NCBI GenBank assembly: GCA_022821275.1
Contig: JAJEDY010000084.1
Coordinates: 1 to 60,330, forward strand
Length of the DNA: 60,330 nucleotides
Reading direction: 5' to 3'
Source: Candidatus Latescibacterota bacterium
GTDB taxonomy: Bacteria > Latescibacterota > UBA2968
The translations under genes were made by a program, and so were the position numbers. Shown piece after piece: positions 7,154 through 55,291 of this stretch. The stretch's first letter is position 1. The number at the start of each line of letters is the position of its first letter. The notes below the pieces were generated by a model. It had not been told where the DNA came from, ran no database searches, and worked only from the letters and a program-made list of their open reading frames with translations.

Positions 7154-7173
7154 GGGCGAGGCATGCCTCGCCC
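7154..7173. repeat. REP-like perfect palindrome
   Basis: A 20-base perfect palindrome with half-site GGGCGAGGCA, followed by CCTACA. Palindromes of this general form are common dispersed intergenic elements in many bacteria. It sits in the 224-base gap between the carrier-protein gene and the S8 protease gene, and could weaken transcription between them or stabilise mRNA ends. Confidence 0.55.
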
Positions 7174-40433: not shown

Positions 40434-42105
40434 TCTCAATTGGCCCACGCTCATTTTTCTGGTGGGTTTGGTCGGCTTTTTTATCTTGTTTTTGTTTTAT
40501 CCCCTGTGGTATGCCTTTGTGCAGTCGCTGGTGGTCGATGGCAGGTTTACGTTTGCGTTTTACGAATTGATGGTGACGAGTCCGGTTTATCAGGAATCTA
40601 TTCTCAATAGTTTTCGGCTGGGGATGATTACGACGATTGCGACTACGTTGCTCAGTTTGCCTCTGGCGTTTTTGCTGGTGCGATACGATTTTGCCGGTAA
40701 GGGGTTTCTCAATGGTTTGATTCTGGTGCCGATGGTTTTGCCCCCGTTTGTGGGGGCGATTGGCATGAAGCAGATGTTTGCGCGTTTTGGCTCTATCAAT
40801 TTGCTACTTTTGGATTTGGGACTTATCGATCAGCCGGTAGATTGGTTTGGCGGCGGTGGTTTTGTAGGTGTGGTGATTTTAGAGGTGCTGCATCTCTATC
40901 CCATTATGTATCTCAATGTGGCCGCTGCTCTTGCCAATGTCGATCCGAGTTTGGAAGAGGCGGCGCGCAATATGGGTAGCCGCGGGTTTCGCCTTTTTCG
41001 AACGGTGACATTTCCGCTGATGTTGCCGGGCTATTTTGCCGGGGCGATTATTGTTTTTATCTGGGCGTTTACCGATTTGGGGACGCCGCTTATTTTTAAT
41101 TATAGGCAGGTTGTGGCGGTCGAGATTTTTAATTCTATTGAGGATATTAACGAAAATCCGATGGCTTACGCGCTGGTTGTCTTTGTGTTGCTGTTGACGG
41201 TTTTTTTCTTTTATCTGTCAAAGGCCACGCTGGGCAGTCGCCGCTATGAGATGATTGCGCGGGGGTATATCAGTTCGGGGTCGCGTCCTGCCTCTCGCGG
41301 GATGACTGTGTTGATTTACGCCGCGATGCTGTCGCTTACGGGTATTGCCCTGATTCCGCATATGAGTGTGTTTTTGACGTCTATTGCCGAGCGCTGGTTT
41401 ATGGCTGTGCTGCCTCAGGAGACGACCGGACGATTTTATACGATGGTTTTTGAACATCCGATGTCTCTGTCCAGTATTGAGATGAGTCTGATGTTGAGTG
41501 TGTTGAGTACGACTCTGGATATTGTTCTGGGTATTGCCATTGCGTATTTGTTGACACGCACGCGCATTCCGTATAAGGGCGTTTTAGATGCGATGGCGAT
41601 GTTGCCTCTGGCTCTGCCGGGTCTGGTGTTGGCTTTTGGGTATCTGGCGGGGTATTCGGGTACTTTTTTAGATGCGCGACACTATCCCGTGCCACTGCTG
41701 GTCATTGCCTATGCGGTGCGGCGGTTGCCCTATATGGTGCGCGCGGCGTATGCGGGATTTCAACAGACGAGTATGACGCTGGAAGAGGCGGCTCAAAATT
41801 TGGGGGCTTCCCGGTTGCGCACGCTTTTTCAAATTACATTTCCGCTGATTTTAGCCAATCTGGTGGCTGGCGGTATTTTGTGTTTTGCGTTTGCAATGCT
41901 CGAGGTGAGCGATAGTTTGATTCTGGCACTTAAGGATGAGTACTATCCCATTACGAAGGCGATTTACGCGCTTATGGGGCGTATGGCAGATGGCGCGTAT
42001 TTGGCCAGTGCGATGGGTGTTTTTGGTATGGTGCTGTTGATTGTGAGTTTGTTTTTGGCCGGGCGATTTTTGGGCAGGCGCATGGGCGAGTTGTTCCGCG
42101 CGTGA
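40420..42105 (+). CDS. ABC importer permease, two fused membrane domains
   Basis: 561 residues from the ATG at 40420 (GGAGGA upstream, overlapping the ATPase gene). Twelve helices in two BPD_transp_1 repeats, each with an EAA loop: [22 protein letters not shown] and [22 protein letters not shown]. The fused layout is like FbpB, ThiP and phosphonate permeases. Confidence 0.93.
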
Positions 42106-42185: not shown

Positions 42186-45100
42186 ATGATTAAGTCACTT
42201 GACAGCAGAGGCACCTGGCAAACTTATTCTATCGACAATGGCCTGGCTGGGCTACGTATTGAACACATTGCCGAGGATAGCGAGGGGTATATCTGGTTCG
42301 CCACATGGGACCATGGTGCCAGCCGATTCGATGGGGACGAGTTCCAGAATTTCACCCAACGAGACGGTCTTTGTAGTGACCGGACTTTTTTTAGTGCAAA
42401 AGACAGTCGAGACCGGATATGGTTCGGTACATTAAATGGGGTCTGCTGGTACGACGGGGCAAATTTCCACCATCTGGAGGACGATGGGATTGCAGGCCGT
42501 GCCGTGCAATGCATCTACGAAGACAATGAGGGCCGTGTATGGTTCGGCGGCACCCAAACTCTGGGATATTACGATGGTACTGCTTTCCACGACCTGATTC
42601 CACTCTATCTCAAGCACTATGAGCAGCCGCCTTCTCCTCAGTCGCCCAAGCGGTGTCGGGGCATTGCTCAGGACCCACAAGGCCACCTGTGGTTTGGCTT
42701 TGACTACCTCATTCACTTCGACGGACACGCCTTCCACCGCTATGAGGAAGAAGAGGGTTTTCCCCAACGCCAGATAAGTTATGCCGTAGGTTGCGACCAT
42801 ACCGGTAAGGTGTGGTTTGGTCAGCGTGGACATCAGAACGATATCTGGTGCTATGCCGATGGCAACTTCCAGCCTGTTCAGGTAGAATTGGGCGGCGCAC
42901 TACGCCGAATTCAGAGTGACCGGGAAGGTCGGATGTGGTTCAGCACTTCAAAAGGGGTGCTCTATCAGAATGGTGATGAGTTCAGCAGATTTACTTTTGC
43001 CGATGGCTTGCCATATCCCTCAGTCAAAGCCGTGTTCCATGATCGCGAGCATCAGTATTGGTTTGCCACCTGGGGTGGTGTTGAGGTTTACGATGCCAGT
43101 ATCAGTGTTTTTGACCTCAGTGCAGAGTTTTCTTCTGTCAAGAGCCAGATATCTCAGTTGGTACAAGACCGGCGAGGTGATATATGGATCGGGTATGCGT
43201 CTCCCAATATCAATCGTTTAAGTGAAAGCCTCTTTCGCTTTGATGGGGAGCACTTTGTACTGGTATGTACTGAGGATGGCTTTGATATCGACAACTGTTT
43301 CGCCATTTACGAGGACCTTGAGGGGTATTTATGGTTTGGCGGTGGCAAAGGTCTGTTCCGCTACGAAGACCAGAAGTTAAAAAAAATAAAAATAATTTCG
43401 GATTCAGGAGAAAAAAGTGTCAGTGCAATCGCCCAGGACCGGGAAGGCCAATTTCTTTTTGGACACTGGGAAGACAGCATCACAACCACGAGGAAAGACC
43501 TTTTTGATAGTCCATTGAAGATTATTTACCGGCGGGATGAACAGTTCCAGACTATTTTTGTGAAAAATGAGGTAAAAGATCCTTTCAGCAGCATCGGTAC
43601 TATCATTGCCGGACGCAATGGCGAATTCTATTTTTATTTATCTTATCAAAATGACAAAGGCTTCGCACGTTGGCATCCTGAAGATGGCCTTAAATTTTAT
43701 GGGGTTGAAGATGGGTTGATAGATCAGAGGGTCACTGACCTGCTGTTAGACCGATCTGGAAACCTGTGGATCGCAACTCAGAGTGGTCTGAGTTGCTTTG
43801 ATGGCAAATCTTTCCACACCTTTACGACTGAAGACGGGTTGCTGAGCCAATATATCCGTTGTCTGTTTGAGGATCGGCAAGGACACCTCTGGATTGGTAC
43901 AGACAATGGTGTGGTTCACTACGATGGTCAGCTTTTCCAGACTATCAATTCACCCCATATAGGACCGGTTTGCCAAATACTTGAAGATCGCGATGGAACC
44001 TTTTGGTTTGGTACTATCCTCGGTTCTCTAATAGGATATCGTTTGCGGCATATTTCACCTCAGATCCGCCTGCTTCGAGTAATCGCTAAGCGAGCTTATG
44101 AGAACCCAAAAGAAGTTGTTCTAACCAGTGCTGATCATCCCGTGATTTTCGAATACAAGGGCCTGAGTTTTTCTACCCATCCCCGCGATATGCTCTATGT
44201 ATATCGTCTGAAGGGCTATGATACAGACTGGCAGCCAGCGACTCGAGAAATGAGGGCGCGTTACCGGAATTTACCACAGGGAGATTACTCTTTTCAAGTC
44301 AGGGCTATAGATCGCGATCTGAATTACTCCGAAATAGCCGAGGTGCAAATTTCATTAGAGTCGGACTTGCGTATTGAAGGTCTAATCGCTACACTCAGCA
44401 GTCAAGACAGCAGCGATTTTATCGGCCAGAGCAAGGCATTGCACCAGTTTCAATTCAGACTTAAAAAGGTGGCATCTACTGATATGACCGTGCTGATTTT
44501 GGGCGAAACGGGTGTGGGTAAGGGACTGGCTGCGCGTGCGCTCCACAGGCTGAGTGCCCATAGCAATGGGCCTTTTATACAGGTCAACTGCGGTGCTTTG
44601 CCCGAATCACTGATCGATAGTGAACTTTTTGGTCACGAGAAAGGGGCTTTTACCAATGCAGTATCTCGCAGGCTGGGCAAGGTGGAACTGGCAAAAAATG
44701 GTACGCTCTTTTTGGACGAGATCGGCGATATGACTCTGGAAATGCAAATCAAACTGTTGCGATTGCTGGATGAGGATACGTTTGAGCGCGTTGGGGGCAA
44801 CCAGACTCTAAAGGCGCAGACGCGGATTGTGGCAGCAACGAATCGCAACTTAAAGGAAATGGTTAGCACGGGTGATTTCCGCGAGGACCTTTATTTTCGC
44901 CTCCTATCTTTTCCGATCTATTTGCCCCCTCTGCGTGAGCGCAAGGAGGATATACCGGACTTAGCCGAGTTTTTCAAGAATCGTATGGCAACTCATCTGG
45001 GCAAGCAAATCGATGCTTTGACGCCCGAAATTATGGCGTTGCTTCAAAACTACGATTGGCCGGGAAATGTACGGGAATTGGAGCATACAATAAACCGGGC

Positions 45101-45380
45101 TCTGATCTTATGTCCTGATTCTCAAATCGAAGTCGAGGATCTCGAACTGCACGGTTCTCGAATTGAAGGTACATCTTATGAAGATAAGAGCGGCACCTTA
45201 TCTGCTTCTCAAGAAGCCGAAATCATGCCTCTGAATGAATTTGAACGTCACTATATTCTTAAAGTGCTCAATATCACTAACTGGCGGATAAAAGGGGCCA
45301 GGGGCGCAGCGACCCTGCTTGGATTACCGCCTTCTACTCTGTACACCAAAATGAAAAAACTGGGCATCAAACGTCTCTAA
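42186..45380 (+). CDS. one-component sigma-54 activator with two-component-type propeller sensor
   Basis: 1064 residues from the ATG at 42186 (AAGG nine bases upstream). Residues 1-615 hold about 13 Reg_prop repeats of the form G-x-x-W-F-G-T-x-x-G-V-x-x-Y-D-G; a Y_Y_Y domain follows (about 620-735). There is no signal peptide or membrane helix, so unlike the usual hybrid sensors this propeller is cytoplasmic. It joins directly to a sigma-54 AAA+ domain (about 743-975): Walker A GETGVGKG, Walker [12 protein letters not shown], Arg-finger FREDLYFRL. The GAFTGA loop is GAFTNA. A Fis-type HTH ends the protein ([20 protein letters not shown]). It probably senses a ligand and activates the sigma-54 promoter at 45554, just downstream. 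Confidence 0.92.
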
Positions 45381-45420
45381 TAATGCCACCGCTTTGCGGT
45401 CAGTCAGTTATTCTAATTAA

Positions 45421-45436
45421 AGACGTTATAACGTCT
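45421..45436. promoter_or_regulatory. palindromic site 1, candidate activator-binding site
   Basis: Perfect 16-base palindrome AGACGTTATAACGTCT, about 138 bases before the -12 element of the sigma-54 promoter. That distance is typical for enhancer sites of sigma-54 activators. Confidence 0.6.
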
Positions 45437-45440
45437 CAAG

Positions 45441-45455
45441 GATGTTATAACGTCT
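45441..45455. promoter_or_regulatory. palindromic site 2, candidate activator-binding site
   Basis: GATGTTATAACGTCT, a near-copy of site 1 with centres 20 bases apart (about two helical turns), as expected for cooperative binding by a dimeric Fis-type HTH. Confidence 0.55.
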
Positions 45456-45553
45456 TTTTTTTATAATCAGACCGCTTTTCTGTTTTTAAAATTAAATATA
45501 CATTTTATTGAAAAATAATGCTTTATAAGTAAAATGGTTGAAACAATTTATAT

Positions 45554-45569
45554 TGGCACGAATATTGCG
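45554..45569 (+). promoter_or_regulatory. sigma-54 (-24/-12) promoter of the PL8 lyase operon
   Basis: TGGCACG, four bases, TTGCG: matches the consensus TGGCACG-N4-TTGCW at all positions except the last. GG at 45555-45556 and GC at 45567-45568 have correct spacing. It lies about 90 bases before the first lyase gene and 174 bases after the stop of a sigma-54 activator gene. Confidence 0.85.
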
Positions 45570-45622
45570 TATTATAAATACTAAAGTTTGGATCATCCGA
45601 TAATTTTATCGAGGTATTTAGT

Positions 45623-45694
45623 ATGAAATTACAAAAGAATCCAGAGGAGAACAGATATGAACTTGCAAAGATGTTTGGCTCTTGTTGTGGGTAG
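45623..45694 (+). CDS. short leader frame overlapping the start of the first PL8 lyase
   Basis: A 23-codon frame starting MKLQKNPEENRYELAK with GAGG eight bases upstream; it overlaps the lyase start (45657) in another frame and ends at 45694. It could couple or tune translation of the lyase. It may be coincidental, since it contains the lyase ribosome site within its codons. Confidence 0.3.
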   Translation: MKLQKNPEENRYELAKMFGSCCG

Positions 45695-48778: not shown

Positions 48779-51700
48779 ATGTGGCATTCTGTGCGCTTAG
48801 TGCCTGCCTTGAACTGTGTAATCATATTCGCGGCTATATTGATTGCCTTTTCTTTGCATGCACAAGATACAAACGAGGGGATATGTGCTCGCACCTCAGA
48901 GGTTCAAACTGTTATTTTGTCTCATATAAACGGTGTGAGTGATTGCGGTCTGGTCACTGTCGCACCTCTTTCTTCTATTACAGTGTTGAGTTTGAACAAT
49001 TCGGGGATTACCAGTTTGCAGTCCGATGATTTCTCCGGTTTGTCAAGTCTTGAAATTTTGCGTCTTAAGGATAATAGTTTGAGTGCCTTGCCTGCCAGTG
49101 TGTTCTCTGGTTTGACGAGTCTGAACAGACTGGATTTGCGTGGTAATCCGGGTTCAGACTTTACTCTTACTCTGCAATTGGATCGCACCGATGATGCGGA
49201 CGATACAGCGTCTGGTCCTGCGACGGTTGTGGTGAAAGTTGCCGAGGGTGCGCCGTTTGATATGATGGTTGGTTTGTCGGTGACGGATGGTACGTTGTCG
49301 TCTTCGAGTGTGACGATAGCAAAAGGTAGTACACAGAGTGATGCTATTACAGTGACACAGACCGGGGTGGGTCAAGCTACGGTGAGTCTGGGTGCTGTCC
49401 CTGCGTTGCCAGCTAATTATCGCGGTATCCAGACTGCTGTGGGCAATCCGCTCGTTCTGTTCGAGAGTGCTGTACAGACCAGGGGCTTTTTCCTTTCTCT
49501 GGATTTAGATGGTTCTGATGGTGATCAGGCAGTCCAGTCTCTTGCAGTACCCCCCCCTTCCGGTAATCAAATTATTTTCATTCAGATTTTTGGCACAGAT
49601 ATTCAAAATGCGTTCGGTTTTTCTGCACGCTTTGGATATGATGTAACTCAGGTTGTTTACGAGGGGTTTGACGCAGGCGATGTGTTGCCAAATCCCGCTG
49701 TGATTTCTGAAGAGGGTACAGGCTTTGTCGAAATTAATATTGCATCGTGGTCTGGTGGGTCTGCAACAGTCAATAGTGGTCTGATGGGTACGTTGCGGTT
49801 TCGCACCATAGATACTTTTGGAGGTACGACGATTCAACTGGTGCATGCTGAGCTTGGTCGGAATGATCAATTTGAAAGCCTGAGATCTGACGGCAACTTT
49901 GAGTTGGAGATAACTAAGCCTTCTTCTCCCGATATTGATGGGAGTGGGGTGGTGGATATTAGCGACTTTTTGCTATTTGTAGGACGCTTTGAAGCAAGCA
50001 ATGAGACATATTTGGATCGGTTCGACTTGGATGGCAATGGCAAAATCGGTTTTTCTGATTTCTTTATTTTTTCCAAAAATTTTGGCAAGACCGCACCTGT
50101 GGCTGTGAGCGCACTTGCTCCCGTGACGTTGGGAATGAATCCCGTGACTGTGGATGTATCAGACAATTTCAGCGATGCGAACAGCGATGTGTTGCACTAT
50201 ACGGCTATGTCGAGTGCAAACGCCATTGCAACGGCAAGAGTAGCGGGGAGTGAGGTAACGATCAGCCCTGTAGATGTGGGCAGTGCAAAAATTACGGTGA
50301 TTGCGACCAATGCAGGTGGATTGAGCGCGACTCAGGACATCGCCGTGACTGTGCAGCTTGCGATGGGATTTGAGGCTTCAAGAATCAAGCGTGCTGTGGA
50401 TGAGAATACGCTACCTGGCGAGAAGATTGGCGATCCGGTTGCTGTAATGAGTTTCGCTTCGCGTACATATCGCCTGAGCGGGGTTGATGCAGATCTTTTC
50501 GTCATTGACAGCAGCAGCGGGCAGATTCGTACGCGGGAGGGTGTAACGTATGATTATGAAGACAAGAGGTCCTATTATGTGAGAATGGTTATGATGGACC
50601 AACAGTACCGGGATCTGGATAGCATTGGCGTGATTATTACTATCAATGATGTGAACGAACCGCCTTCGTCGCCCCCATCGAATTTCCTGGTGGTTCCGGG
50701 TGATCGGTCACTGAGCATTCATTACAGTCCATGTATTGATGAACCCGATAAACCGCCTATCAGAGGCTATCATGCAGAACTTCGCACGGGTACGGACGGC
50801 GATTGGGGCAATCGAAAGACCATCTATGGTCGCAACACTGCCACAGTTTATTATACGAAATTGAATGTGCCTCGGTATCACGATCCAGACTTGATCAACG
50901 GTCAGTTATATCAGGTTCGAGTTTGCGCTTGGAATTCCGAGGGTGCAAGCGATTGGTCTGAGCCGGTTTCGGGTACGCCAGAACCGAGGGTGATTTTTGT
51001 GGGGACAGAGTTTGAGCAATTCTATGGTACGGAGAATCTGGCATATGCGGAAATTGATCTCTTGAACATCACCAAAGCAGGAGGCAGAATCACGGTCTCG
51101 CAAGCCGCTCTTCCTGTGCATATTTCACCGACCGAGGCTGAGGGAGTTTTCTTACAAGCAGCCGTCGTTAATAGTTTTTATGTCCCGCAGGTGCCTGCTG
51201 GGGCGGGCTTTACCATTCTGGAAGGTTCGCCGATTTTGGATATAGAACTGAAGGTTGTGGTCAATAAACGCAGGATTGACATCGGCGATGAATTGATGGA
51301 GCCTGTGGAGATTTGCCTACCTGTGACTGCTGACATTTCCAGGCCGTTTATTATTCGCTACAGCGATGAGTGGAAAATACTCGAGAATCAGCGTGTGGAT
51401 GGAAACGAGATCTGCGCTCTGACAGATGGATTCTCACTTTTTGGCGTTGGAGTGAAAAATACTCCGAAGTTAAGTTTTGGTGGTGTGACGATAGCCGATC
51501 AGGCCTATAAGCAGAATGCCCAGATTACTGATCTGGTATTGCCAACAGCGACAGGTGGCACTGCTCCGATTACTTATGCACTCAGTCCAGAGACTAATGG
51601 CACACCCAACTTGCCTGCTGGATTGAGCTTTAACGCAAATACGCACACGATTTCGGGCACACCCTCGGCGGCCTTCCCAATGACGACATTTACCTGGACG

Positions 51701-54700
51701 GCGACAGATGCTGATAACGACACAGCCGAATTGATGTTCGACATCACAGTTCTCACAGGGATATGTGCTCGCACTTCACAGGTTCAAGCAGCTATTTTGG
51801 ATGAGATAGATGGTGTGAGTGATTGTGGTTTGGTCACGAGCACCCATCTCTCCTCTGTTGAGACGCTGAGTTTGAACAATAAGGGGATCACCAGTTTGCA
51901 GTCCAATGATTTCTCCGGTTTGTCGGGTCTTGAGACTTTGCGTCTTAAGGACAACAGTTTGAGCGCATTGCCTGCTAATGTGTTTTCTGGTTTGACGAGT
52001 CTGAACAGACTGGATTTGCGGGGTAATCCCGGCTCGGACTTTATCCTTACTTTGCAATTGGATCGCACCGATGATGCGGACGATACGGCGTCTGGTCCTG
52101 CGACGGTTGTTGTGAAGGTTTCTGAGGGTGCGCCGTTTGATATGACGGTTGGTTTGTCGGTGACGGGTGGTACGTTGTCCCCTTCTTCGAGTGTGACGAT
52201 AGCCAAGGGCAGTACGCAGAGTGGTGCTGTCACCGTGACGCAGACCGGGATGGTGCAAGCTACGGTGAGTATGGGTGCTGCACCTGCGGTTCCAGAAGGT
52301 TATGGAGCTATCCAGACTGCTGTGGGCAATCCACTCGTCTTGTTCACCTCTTCGGTATTACATTTTGGTGGTCAGGAGATTGCCGACCAGACCTATAAGC
52401 AGAACAGTGTGATCACTGATCTGGTATTGCCAACAGCGACAGGTGGCACTGCTCCGATTACTTATGCACTCAGTCCAGAGACGAATGGCATACCCGACTT
52501 GCCGACTGGCCTGAGCTTTAACGCAAATACGCGCACGATTTCGGGTACACCTTCGGCGGTCTTTTCGACAACTGAGTTTACGTGGACAGCTACAGATGCA
52601 GCTAATGCCACAGCCGAACTGATGTTCGATATTACAGTTCCCGAAGGGATATGTGACCGTACCTCACAGGTTCAAGCAGCTATTCTAGATGAGGTAGAAG
52701 GTGTGAGTGATTGCGGTCTGGTTACGCTCGCCGATCTCTCTTCGGTTACGACGCTGAGTTTGAACAATTCGGGTATCACCACTTTGCAGTCCGATGATTT
52801 CTCCGGTTTGTCAAGTCTGTCCAACTTGCGTCTTAAGGACAATAGTTTGAGCACCTTGCCCGCTAATGTGTTCTCTGGTCTGACGAGTTTGACAAGACTG
52901 GATTTGCGGGGTAATCCCGGTTCAGACTTTCCCCTTACCTTGCAATTAGATCGCACAGATGATGCGGACGATACAGCGTCTGGTCCTGCGACGATTGTTG
53001 TGAAAGTAGCTGAGGGTGCGCCATTCGATATGACGGTTGGTTTGTCGGTGACGGGTGGTACGTTGTCGCCTTCTTCGAGTGTGAAGATAGCCAAGGGTAG
53101 CACTCAGAGTGGTTCTGTCACCGTGACGCAGACCGGGATGGTACAAGCCACTGTGAGTCTGGGTGCTGCACCTGCACTACCACAATTTTATCGTGGTATC
53201 CAGACTGCTGTGGGTAATCCACTCGTCTTGTTCCCTGTGGTGAATCGTGCGCCGGAGAAAGTAGGCACGATTGCTGCACAGACCTTAACCGAGGGTGTTG
53301 CCGCTGTGATGGTGGATGTGTCAGGCAACTTTTCTGATCCTGAGAATGATCCCCTGACGTATAGTGCGACATCAGATGATGAGGATGTTGCGACGGTGAG
53401 TGTGCAGGGTTCTGTTGTGACGCTTAGTCCTGTGGGTGCGGGTAGTACGACGGTCACTGTGACGGCATTGGATGCGACGGGGTCGAATATGAGTGTGGAT
53501 CAAACCATCGCTGTGACTGTGAACCCTGCAGGATTGAGTTTTGGTAATGTGACAATTGCCGATCAGACCTATAAGCAGAACAGTGCGATCACTGATCTGG
53601 TATTGCCAACAGCCATAGGTGGCACTGCTCCTATTACTTATGCACTCAGTCCAGAGACGAATGGCACACCCAACTTGCCGACTGGCCTGAGCTTTAATGC
53701 GAATACGCGCACGATTTCGGGTACACCCTCGGCGGTCTTTTCGACAACTGAGTTTACGTGGACGGCCACAGATGCAGCTAATGCCACAGCCGAACGGATG
53801 TTCGATATTACAGTTCCCGTAGGGATATGTGCTCGCACCACACAGGTTCGCGATGAGATTTTAGATCAGATAGAAGGTGTGAGTGATTGCGGTCTGGTCA
53901 CTGTCACAGATCTCTCTTCTGTTACATTGTTGAGTTTGAATAATTCAGGGATCACGGCTTTACAGGCAGATGATTTCTCTGGTCTGTCGAGTCTTGAGAT
54001 TTTGCGTCTTAAGGATAACAGTTTGAGCGCATTGCCTGCTAATGTGTTTTCTGGTCTGACGAGTTTGAACAGACTGGACTTGAGTGGCAATCCCGGTTCT
54101 GCCTTTACTCTTACCTTAGCGTTAGATCGTACCGATGATGCGGACGATACAGCACAGGGTCCTGCGACAGTTGTTGTGAAGGTTGCCGAGGGTGCGCCAT
54201 TTGATATGACGGTTGGTTTGTCGGTGACGGGTGGTACGTTGTCGCCTTCGAGTGAGACGATAGCGAAGGGTAGCACGCAAAGTGGTTCTATCACGGTGAC
54301 GCAGACCGGGATGGTACAAGCCACTGTGAGTTTGGATGCTGCCCCTGCATTGCCAGCTAATTATCGCGGTATCCAGATTGCTGTGGGTGTTCCACTCGTC
54401 TTGTTCCCTGTGGTGAACCGTGCGCCGGAGAAAGTGGGGACAATTGCTGCACAGACCTTAACCGAGGGTGCTGCTGCTGTGACGGTGGATGTGTCAGGCA
54501 ACTTTTCTGATCCTGAGAATGATCCACTAACTTATAGTGCAACATCAGATGATGAGGATGTTGTGACGGTGAGTGTGCAGGGTTCTGTTGTGACGCTTAG
54601 TCCTGTGGGTGCGGGTAGTACGACGGTTACTGTGACGGCATTGGATGCGACGGGGTCGAATATGAGTGTAGATCAAACCATCGCTGTGACTGTGAACCCT

Positions 54701-55291
54701 GCGGGGATATGCTCTCGCACTTCACAGGTTCAAACAGCCATTCTGGATGAGATAGACGGTGTGAGTGACTGTAGTTTGGTCACGAGTACACATCTCTCTT
54801 CGGTTACGAAGCTGAGTTTGAATGAATCAGAGATCACCACTTTGCAATCAGATGATTTCTCCGGTTTGACGAGTCTGGACAACTTGCGTCTTAGGAGGAA
54901 TAGTTTGAGTACGTTACCTGCTAATGTGTTTTCTGGTTTGACGAGTCTGACGAAGCTGGATTTGCGGAATAATCCGGGTTCAGACTTTACTCTTACTTTG
55001 CAATTGGATCGCACAGATGATACGGATGATACAGCATCTGGTCCTGCGACGATTGTTGTAAAAGTAGCTGAGGGTGCGCCGTTTGATATGACGGTTGGTT
55101 TGTCGGCGATAGGTGGTACGTTGTCGTCTTCTACTGTGACGATAGCAAAGGGCAGTACGCAGAGTGGTTCTATCACCGTAACACAGACCGTTACAGGTAA
55201 AGTCACTGTGAGTCTTGGTGCTGCCCCTGCGTTGCCAGCAGGTTATCGTGGTATTCAGACTGCTGTGGGTGATCCACTTGTTCTGTTTTAA
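48779..55291 (+). CDS. giant secreted LRR/cohesin/dockerin/cadherin-like protein with five near-identical modules
   Basis: 2170 residues with a signal peptide ending LHAQ. The order is LRR module 1 (about 33-225), cohesin-like domain (about 233-380, IFIQIFGTDIQNAFGFSARF), dockerin (about 383-440 with DIDGSGVVDISDFLLF and DLDGNGKIGFSDFFIF), an Ig-like repeat, a cadherin-like domain (about 530-620, ending VIITINDVNEPP), fibronectin III (about 627-735), and a unique domain to about 895. After that, putative-Ig repeats (SFGGVTIADQAYKQN) alternate with LRR modules 2 to 5, starting near 993, 1290, 1681 and 1975. Each LRR module starts with G-I-C-x-R-T and V-S-D-C and ends V-L-F. It is probably a surface scaffold or adhesin for the flanking lyases. 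Confidence 0.85.
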   Translation: MWHSVRLVPALNCVIIFAAILIAFSLHAQDTNEGICARTSEVQTVILSHINGVSDCGLVTVAPLSSITVLSLNNSGITSLQSDDFSGLSSLEILRLKDNSLSALPASVFSGLTSLNRLDLRGNPGSDFTLTLQLDRTDDADDTASGPATVVVKVAEGAPFDMMVGLSVTDGTLSSSSVTIAKGSTQSDAITVTQTGVGQATVSLGAVPALPANYRGIQTAVGNPLVLFESAVQTRGFFLSLDLDGSDGDQAVQSLAVPPPSGNQIIFIQIFGTDIQNAFGFSARFGYDVTQVVYEGFDAGDVLPNPAVISEEGTGFVEINIASWSGGSATVNSGLMGTLRFRTIDTFGGTTIQLVHAELGRNDQFESLRSDGNFELEITKPSSPDIDGSGVVDISDFLLFVGRFEASNETYLDRFDLDGNGKIGFSDFFIFSKNFGKTAPVAVSALAPVTLGMNPVTVDVSDNFSDANSDVLHYTAMSSANAIATARVAGSEVTISPVDVGSAKITVIATNAGGLSATQDIAVTVQLAMGFEASRIKRAVDENTLPGEKIGDPVAVMSFASRTYRLSGVDADLFVIDSSSGQIRTREGVTYDYEDKRSYYVRMVMMDQQYRDLDSIGVIITINDVNEPPSSPPSNFLVVPGDRSLSIHYSPCIDEPDKPPIRGYHAELRTGTDGDWGNRKTIYGRNTATVYYTKLNVPRYHDPDLINGQLYQVRVCAWNSEGASDWSEPVSGTPEPRVIFVGTEFEQFYGTENLAYAEIDLLNITKAGGRITVSQAALPVHISPTEAEGVFLQAAVVNSFYVPQVPAGAGFTILEGSPILDIELKVVVNKRRIDIGDELMEPVEICLPVTADISRPFIIRYSDEWKILENQRVDGNEICALTDGFSLFGVGVKNTPKLSFGGVTIADQAYKQNAQITDLVLPTATGGTAPITYALSPETNGTPNLPAGLSFNANTHTISGTPSAAFPMTTFTWTATDADNDTAELMFDITVLTGICARTSQVQAAILDEIDGVSDCGLVTSTHLSSVETLSLNNKGITSLQSNDFSGLSGLETLRLKDNSLSALPANVFSGLTSLNRLDLRGNPGSDFILTLQLDRTDDADDTASGPATVVVKVSEGAPFDMTVGLSVTGGTLSPSSSVTIAKGSTQSGAVTVTQTGMVQATVSMGAAPAVPEGYGAIQTAVGNPLVLFTSSVLHFGGQEIADQTYKQNSVITDLVLPTATGGTAPITYALSPETNGIPDLPTGLSFNANTRTISGTPSAVFSTTEFTWTATDAANATAELMFDITVPEGICDRTSQVQAAILDEVEGVSDCGLVTLADLSSVTTLSLNNSGITTLQSDDFSGLSSLSNLRLKDNSLSTLPANVFSGLTSLTRLDLRGNPGSDFPLTLQLDRTDDADDTASGPATIVVKVAEGAPFDMTVGLSVTGGTLSPSSSVKIAKGSTQSGSVTVTQTGMVQATVSLGAAPALPQFYRGIQTAVGNPLVLFPVVNRAPEKVGTIAAQTLTEGVAAVMVDVSGNFSDPENDPLTYSATSDDEDVATVSVQGSVVTLSPVGAGSTTVTVTALDATGSNMSVDQTIAVTVNPAGLSFGNVTIADQTYKQNSAITDLVLPTAIGGTAPITYALSPETNGTPNLPTGLSFNANTRTISGTPSAVFSTTEFTWTATDAANATAERMFDITVPVGICARTTQVRDEILDQIEGVSDCGLVTVTDLSSVTLLSLNNSGITALQADDFSGLSSLEILRLKDNSLSALPANVFSGLTSLNRLDLSGNPGSAFTLTLALDRTDDADDTAQGPATVVVKVAEGAPFDMTVGLSVTGGTLSPSSETIAKGSTQSGSITVTQTGMVQATVSLDAAPALPANYRGIQIAVGVPLVLFPVVNRAPEKVGTIAAQTLTEGAAAVTVDVSGNFSDPENDPLTYSATSDDEDVVTVSVQGSVVTLSPVGAGSTTVTVTALDATGSNMSVDQTIAVTVNPAGICSRTSQVQTAILDEIDGVSDCSLVTSTHLSSVTKLSLNESEITTLQSDDFSGLTSLDNLRLRRNSLSTLPANVFSGLTSLTKLDLRNNPGSDFTLTLQLDRTDDTDDTASGPATIVVKVAEGAPFDMTVGLSAIGGTLSSSTVTIAKGSTQSGSITVTQTVTGKVTVSLGAAPALPAGYRGIQTAVGDPLVLF
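48878..49465 (+). repeat. LRR module repeat 1
   Basis: About 585 bases; the same unit recurs four times downstream. It codes for a Cys pair at the start, four leucine-rich repeats with N-N-S-G-I-T-S-L-Q-S-D-D-F, and a Calx-beta-like tail. Confidence 0.85.
51758..52346 (+). repeat. LRR module repeat 2
   Basis: Same unit as 48878-49465, preceded by a putative-Ig repeat. Confidence 0.85.
52646..53232 (+). repeat. LRR module repeat 3
   Basis: Same unit; the first Cys pair lies in GICDRTSQ. Preceded by a putative-Ig repeat nearly identical to the one before repeat 2. Confidence 0.85.
53821..54408 (+). repeat. LRR module repeat 4
   Basis: Same unit, preceded by a cadherin-like repeat (VVNRAPEKVGTIAAQTLTEG) and a putative-Ig repeat. 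Confidence 0.85.
54704..55291 (+). repeat. LRR module repeat 5
   Basis: Same unit, ending the protein at V-L-F-stop; preceded by a second copy of the VVNRAPEKVGTIAAQTLTEG repeat. Confidence 0.85.

Follow-up and report, generated by a model that had tools for sequence, protein, structure and literature searches.

Few bacterial regulators are understood as well as the sigma-54 activators; on the question of how duplicated activators of this type gain separate DNA addresses, natural data sets are scarce. The enhancer-binding proteins NtrC, PspF and FleQ have an AAA+ sigma-54 domain and a Fis-type helix–turn–helix (HTH) domain and operate with rpoN, a -24/-12 promoter and dimeric upstream sites approximately 130–150 bp from the transcription start. 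In this study, we describe a locus with these same features in a window of 60,330 nucleotides (the whole stretch of DNA that was analysed) from a Candidatus Latescibacterota bacterium. Unlike NtrC, PspF and FleQ, the activator encoded here has a propeller/Y_Y_Y sensor, not a receiver, GAF or PAS domain, and it carries GAFTNA instead of GAFTGA. With the hybrid two-component systems of Bacteroides the locus has in common the sensor domains, a target in polysaccharide degradation and a locally encoded regulator. However, in the Bacteroides systems the output consists of a histidine kinase, a receiver and a DNA-binding domain, whereas the window activator is without kinase, receiver or obvious membrane segment and has a sigma-54 AAA+ domain and a Fis-type HTH as its output.

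The operators at this locus also resemble the sites of Escherichia coli Fis: both have an AT-rich centre and carry a G at their outer edge. For Fis itself, the principal contact to a base comes from Arg85, and the phosphates are contacted by Lys90 (PMC3711457). Correlations between proteins and their sites have been studied for MerR (PMC5045206) and in the regulon reconstruction of Desulfovibrio enhancer-binding proteins (PMC4641369); the comparative-genomics inference used here is of the same kind, but it is applied to one paralogous sigma-54 activator family with sites adjacent to each member.

Layout of the activator–lyase locus

For the activator gene (Table 1), the ATG at 42186 was chosen as the start codon because paralogs begin MLKSL...; a longer ORF opens at the GTG at position 42102, from which residue numbers such as Thr1082 are counted. 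Based on Pfam, the protein contains Reg_prop propeller repeats, a Y_Y_Y domain, the sigma-54 AAA+ domain and the Fis-type HTH. The sensor part has matches to 4a2l, 3v9f and 3ott (E = 1e-41 to 1e-18), which are sensor domains from hybrid two-component proteins of Bacteroides, and no report of a Reg_prop/sigma-54 fusion was found in the literature searched. A histidine kinase and a receiver domain, which hybrid two-component systems join in one membrane protein, had no Pfam match in the activator, and no obvious signal peptide or membrane helix was seen in its sequence; therefore, judged from these sequence features, it is probably a cytoplasmic one-component regulator. The AAA+ domain scores 222.7 bits against Sigma54_activat, has conserved GETGVGK and LFLDEIGD motifs and matches FlrA, NtrC, FleQ and PspF in the PDB. 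Its sigma-54 contact loop reads GAFTNA, and GAFTSA or GAFTNA is found in most of the aligned paralogs; single-residue variants of GAFTGA, such as GAFTDA, have been reported in Desulfovibrio and are regarded as functional (PMC4641369).

The initial annotation of this DNA had described, between the activator and the next gene, a perfect palindrome and a near copy with centres 20 bases apart. Both are present, but their centres (45428.5 and 45447.5) are spaced by 19 bp. The distance of 115–140 bases to the promoter given there fits if the centres are measured to the -12 element; counted from the first T of the -24 element, the pair begins 133 bp and ends 99 bp upstream. The core of operator 2 begins 113 bp before this T, which is the position of the proximal site in the other tandem cassettes described below. 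The window has no other tandem pair of 14-bp palindromes, and operators 1 and 2 are also its only matches to the operator with three or fewer mismatches (0.12 expected). A genome-wide search for the motif, as had been suggested, identified no exact copy elsewhere in the 5.66-Mb genome, and among the other matches with up to two mismatches there is one that represents a related operator, belonging to a paralog on contig 63. The paralog operators C63 and C78 read GACGATATATCGTC and GGCCATATATGGAC, respectively. A single other perfect 16-bp palindrome (GCGAGGCATGCCTCGC) is located in the window, at 7156–7171.

The TGGCACG-N4-TTGCG element was found exactly as annotated. It matches the sigma-54 consensus at 11 of 12 positions, with GG at -24, GC at -12 and 10 bp between them, and the genome contains rpoN (Sigma54_DBD, E = 8.8e-56), the absence of which had been named beforehand as an observation that would count against the reading. 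Several sigma-70-like hexamer pairs are present at 45508–45582 in an AT-rich stretch, more than in shuffles, as would be expected if a promoter of the sigma-70 type were the main driver of lyase transcription and the -24/-12 match were a coincidence; this we consider very improbable in view of the 11 consensus positions, the 29 occurrences of TGGCACGN4TTGC in the genome versus 4 for the reversed control, and the sigma-54 promoter at the same place in paralogs.

The second gene behind the promoter is likely to be co-transcribed with the lyase gene, based on the spacing. A 23-codon ORF with a plausible ribosome-binding site of its own (45623–45694) begins 34 bases ahead of the lyase start codon and extends across it in a different frame; this ORF may encode a leader peptide or be due to chance.

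Table 1. Coordinates of the features of the locus in the window
Feature	Position	Strand	Basis and remarks
Activator gene	42186..45380	+	Pfam, ORF, paralog N-termini
AAA+ sigma-54 interaction domain and lid	44421..45152	+	Pfam; alignment; GAFTGA variant; LFLDEIGD
HTH_8 (Fis-type) DNA-binding domain	45231..45362	+	Pfam E = 1.6e-7, 31.4 bits against a cut-off of 22
Codon of Thr1082, recognition helix	45345..45347	+	Column scan; residue co-varies with operator base 4
Outer stem GCGGUC (45396-45401) / GACCGC (45470-45475)	45396..45475	+	RNA fold; encloses the operators
Terminator-like hairpin	45419..45462	+	18-bp stem 45419-45436 / 45440-45457, loop CAA, T run 45455-45462
Operator 1 (putative)	45421..45436	.	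AGACGTTATAACGTCT, perfect 16-bp palindrome; centre about -151 from predicted start
Operator 2 (putative)	45440..45455	.	GGATGTTATAACGTCT, 14/16 copy (2 mismatches); centre about -132 from predicted start
-24/-12 promoter	45554..45569	+	TGGCACGAATATTGCG (TGGCACG-AATA-TTGCG); predicted start about 45580
Target, secreted polysaccharide lyase family 8 protein, 1018 aa	45657..48713	+	Pfam Lyase_catalyt, Lyase_8, Lyase_N
Second gene, large LRR / Ig-like / cadherin-like secreted protein	48779..55291	+	65 bp after lyase

Paralogous cassettes and their hairpins

The activator belongs to a family whose close members number about 50 across 11 genomes of the genus. Over its full length, the protein has relatives at 66–72 % identity, among them three in this genome and ten in a single closed genome from the same genus. 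For a comparison of cassettes, about 60 relatives were retrieved with their flanks. In 45 cassettes a sigma-54 promoter is located within 450 bp of the activator gene; in the 30 tandem cassettes a strong promoter follows 160–350 bp after the end of the activator, and in the 15 divergent ones it lies upstream. Between activator and promoter there are one to three palindromes of the form GA-nnn-TATA-nnn-TC (GAnnnTATAnnnTC), and the proximal one usually starts 112–117 bp (tandem) or 126–128 bp (divergent) before the -24 T. With a generic operator motif, drawn from the same cassettes but blind to base 4 and to the helix, sites scoring at least 9 were found 29 times in tandem cassettes versus 2.9 in shuffles and 14 times in divergent cassettes versus 1.1, an approximately tenfold excess; several divergent cassettes have imperfect sites. 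These motif-based counts replaced an unguided profile of mean palindromicity against distance, which was set aside as its peaks came partly from A/T-rich stretches. The pattern of operator and promoter at a fixed gap was matched 34 times in the 11 genomes, and not once by the reversed control.

Those targets in which domains could be recognised are mostly large, apparently secreted proteins and comprise lyase, haloperoxidase-like, GH2-like, multicopper oxidase, dockerin/cadherin/fn3, WD40 and LRR proteins. At two loci (L094 and L095) the gene that directly follows the sigma-54 promoter encodes a further activator-family member, which suggests a two-step cascade, and at two others (L107 and L114) one activator has a sigma-54 promoter on either side, the one in tandem and the other divergent, with the same operator. 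Some full-length paralogs in four genomes (G001, G002, G003 and G007) have one in-frame stop, and it seems that the family includes decaying copies. Operators of the GACCATATAAGGTC type with a sigma-54 promoter are also found with no family activator adjacent to them (L287, L288, L285 and L277), and three such promoters stand in a row in the closed genome G007. Therefore, this operator class seems to serve several loci, unlike the dedicated operator in the window.

At 45419–45462 a stable stem-loop is followed by a T run, the arrangement by which an intrinsic terminator is recognized. The stem is A/T-rich with few G-C pairs and two G-U pairs, and a 106-nt fold has an energy of -33.7 kcal/mol (z = -7.2); the z-scores obtained for the stem range from -7.2 to -8.4. 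Where the initial annotation had a 12-bp terminator with eight T, the stem and the T run hold, but the stem has 18 pairs, and three of the eight T in the run can pair within it. Hairpins of the terminator type that face the target are present in 24 of 30 tandem and 11 of 15 divergent cassettes, as against 23 of 135 shuffles. In many tandem cassettes an operator sits in the loop of a GAGCCA...TGGCTC stem, and in the window the operator pair itself is the stem, within a shorter outer stem. Four divergent cassettes (L098, L118, L124 and L125) have a GAGCCA...TGGCTC hairpin and T run facing the target, and no upstream gene is transcribed into it. Since divergent cassettes carry the hairpin with nothing to terminate, it may do more than end transcription of the activator gene; possibly, it insulates the promoter there.

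The length of the stem and its z-scores, the two changes in operator 2, both of which preserve G-U pairing in the RNA, and the frequency of such hairpins in the family would all suit a different explanation, namely that the palindromes are only the terminator of the activator gene, with a symmetry that is incidental and bound by no protein. Nevertheless, the sites are held at a fixed distance from the promoter, they are also found in divergent cassettes and at promoters that have no activator beside them, in some paralogs (L102 and L131) they are in direct tandem and without T runs, and they co-vary with the HTH. It is thus highly unlikely that termination is all that the palindromes do, and they are better read as protein-binding sites nested in a hairpin.

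Co-variation of recognition helix and operator

The nnn triplets are alike among the copies within a cassette and different between cassettes (agreement of 4.33/6 within cassettes versus 2.87/6 when permuted, a value reached in 0 of 5000 permutations). A scan of the protein alignment identified residue 1082 as the only one of 1061 columns that separates the groups defined by half-site base 4 without error: G accompanies Ser or Thr (8 of 8 activators), and C accompanies Asn or Gly (19 of 19; p = 4.5e-7), scored on the 27 of 39 activators that are clear, the other 12 having no clear site or a mixed base 4. Poor fits are L133 (Ser, mostly T), L095 (Gly, mixed) and L115 (Ser, a tie of G and C). 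The window activator has a Thr1082 that is unique in the set, and its CGT triplet is likewise unique. Half-site base 3 tracks residue 1078 of the same helix, where only two activators differ. The helix aligns to Fis residues 84–90, and we take residue 1082 to be at the position of Lys90; unlike in E. coli Fis, the residue at this position varies here and tracks a base.

On a tree built without the HTH, residue 1082 changed about five times. The well-supported independent pairs are concordant in 4 of 4 cases (sign test on the starred branches, p = 0.125), the four to five phylogenetically independent pairs being too few for significance on their own. Among 40 distant paralogs (38–51 % identity), seven loci with Ser have recurrent palindromes downstream of the activator's stop codon, and base 4 is G in all seven (CGA or TGA); in many of the 40 a recurrent palindrome was not found. 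The Ser/CGA state may be ancestral, and the distant set may thus support generality more than independence. Two distant paralogs (L311 and L320), in which the helix position is occupied by Tyr (EKLRYRM), carry another type of palindrome, GTGGA..TCCAC.

As base 4 tracks a residue of the recognition helix, the operators very probably belong to the adjacent activator. Palindromes of this sort are bound by many repressors, and a repressor or some other protein might occupy them instead, but such a protein would leave it to chance that bases 3 and 4 follow recognition-helix residues of the adjacent activator, for base 4 uniquely among the 1061 columns, and that the exact operator occurs only at this locus in the genome; we give this explanation a very small chance. 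We therefore return to the reading in which the palindromes would be the sites from which the adjacent activator acts on the -24/-12 promoter, to which we assign, on sequence evidence, a probability of roughly 0.85.

The proposed switch and its evolution

According to this model, a one-component enhancer-binding protein would sense a ligand, most likely a glycan fragment, through its propeller repeats. Its dimers would bind, via the Fis-type domain, to the two palindromes in the gap that separates its own gene from the following one, and its AAA+ domain would remodel the sigma-54 polymerase on the promoter 100–130 bp downstream, which would then switch on the polysaccharide lyase and probably the next gene too. 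Both operator binding and activation by the window activator are deduced from the comparisons above. The hairpin formed by the operator pair should halt read-through from the activator gene into the lyase gene, so that lyase expression would depend on the sigma-54 promoter. That activator, sites, promoter and target are contiguous as a sigma-54 control region, as originally proposed, is borne out by the anatomy, by the recurrence of the arrangement in about 45 paralogous cassettes and by the co-variation with the helix; only the role of the hairpin may have been drawn too narrowly.

The mechanism is of a known kind, and the new parts are the sensor fusion, the nesting of operators and hairpin and the coupling of residues to bases. 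Regulator and operators changed together, and therefore each paralogous copy has its own address. A more far-reaching proposal is that these duplicated regulator–operator–promoter cassettes, with addresses that diverged pairwise, represent an evolved recognition code for Fis-type sigma-54 activators, in which residue 1082 sets base 4 (Ser/Thr for G, Asn/Gly for C) and a second residue sets base 3, with the operators nested in terminators; for this we see the odds as about even.

With dozens of paralogs located beside their own sites, single helix residues are linked to single operator bases, and the specificity is directly testable. A type of sensor known from Bacteroides is coupled here to a different output, and the family suggests that secreted polysaccharide-degrading and adhesive proteins are controlled locus by locus in this uncultured lineage.
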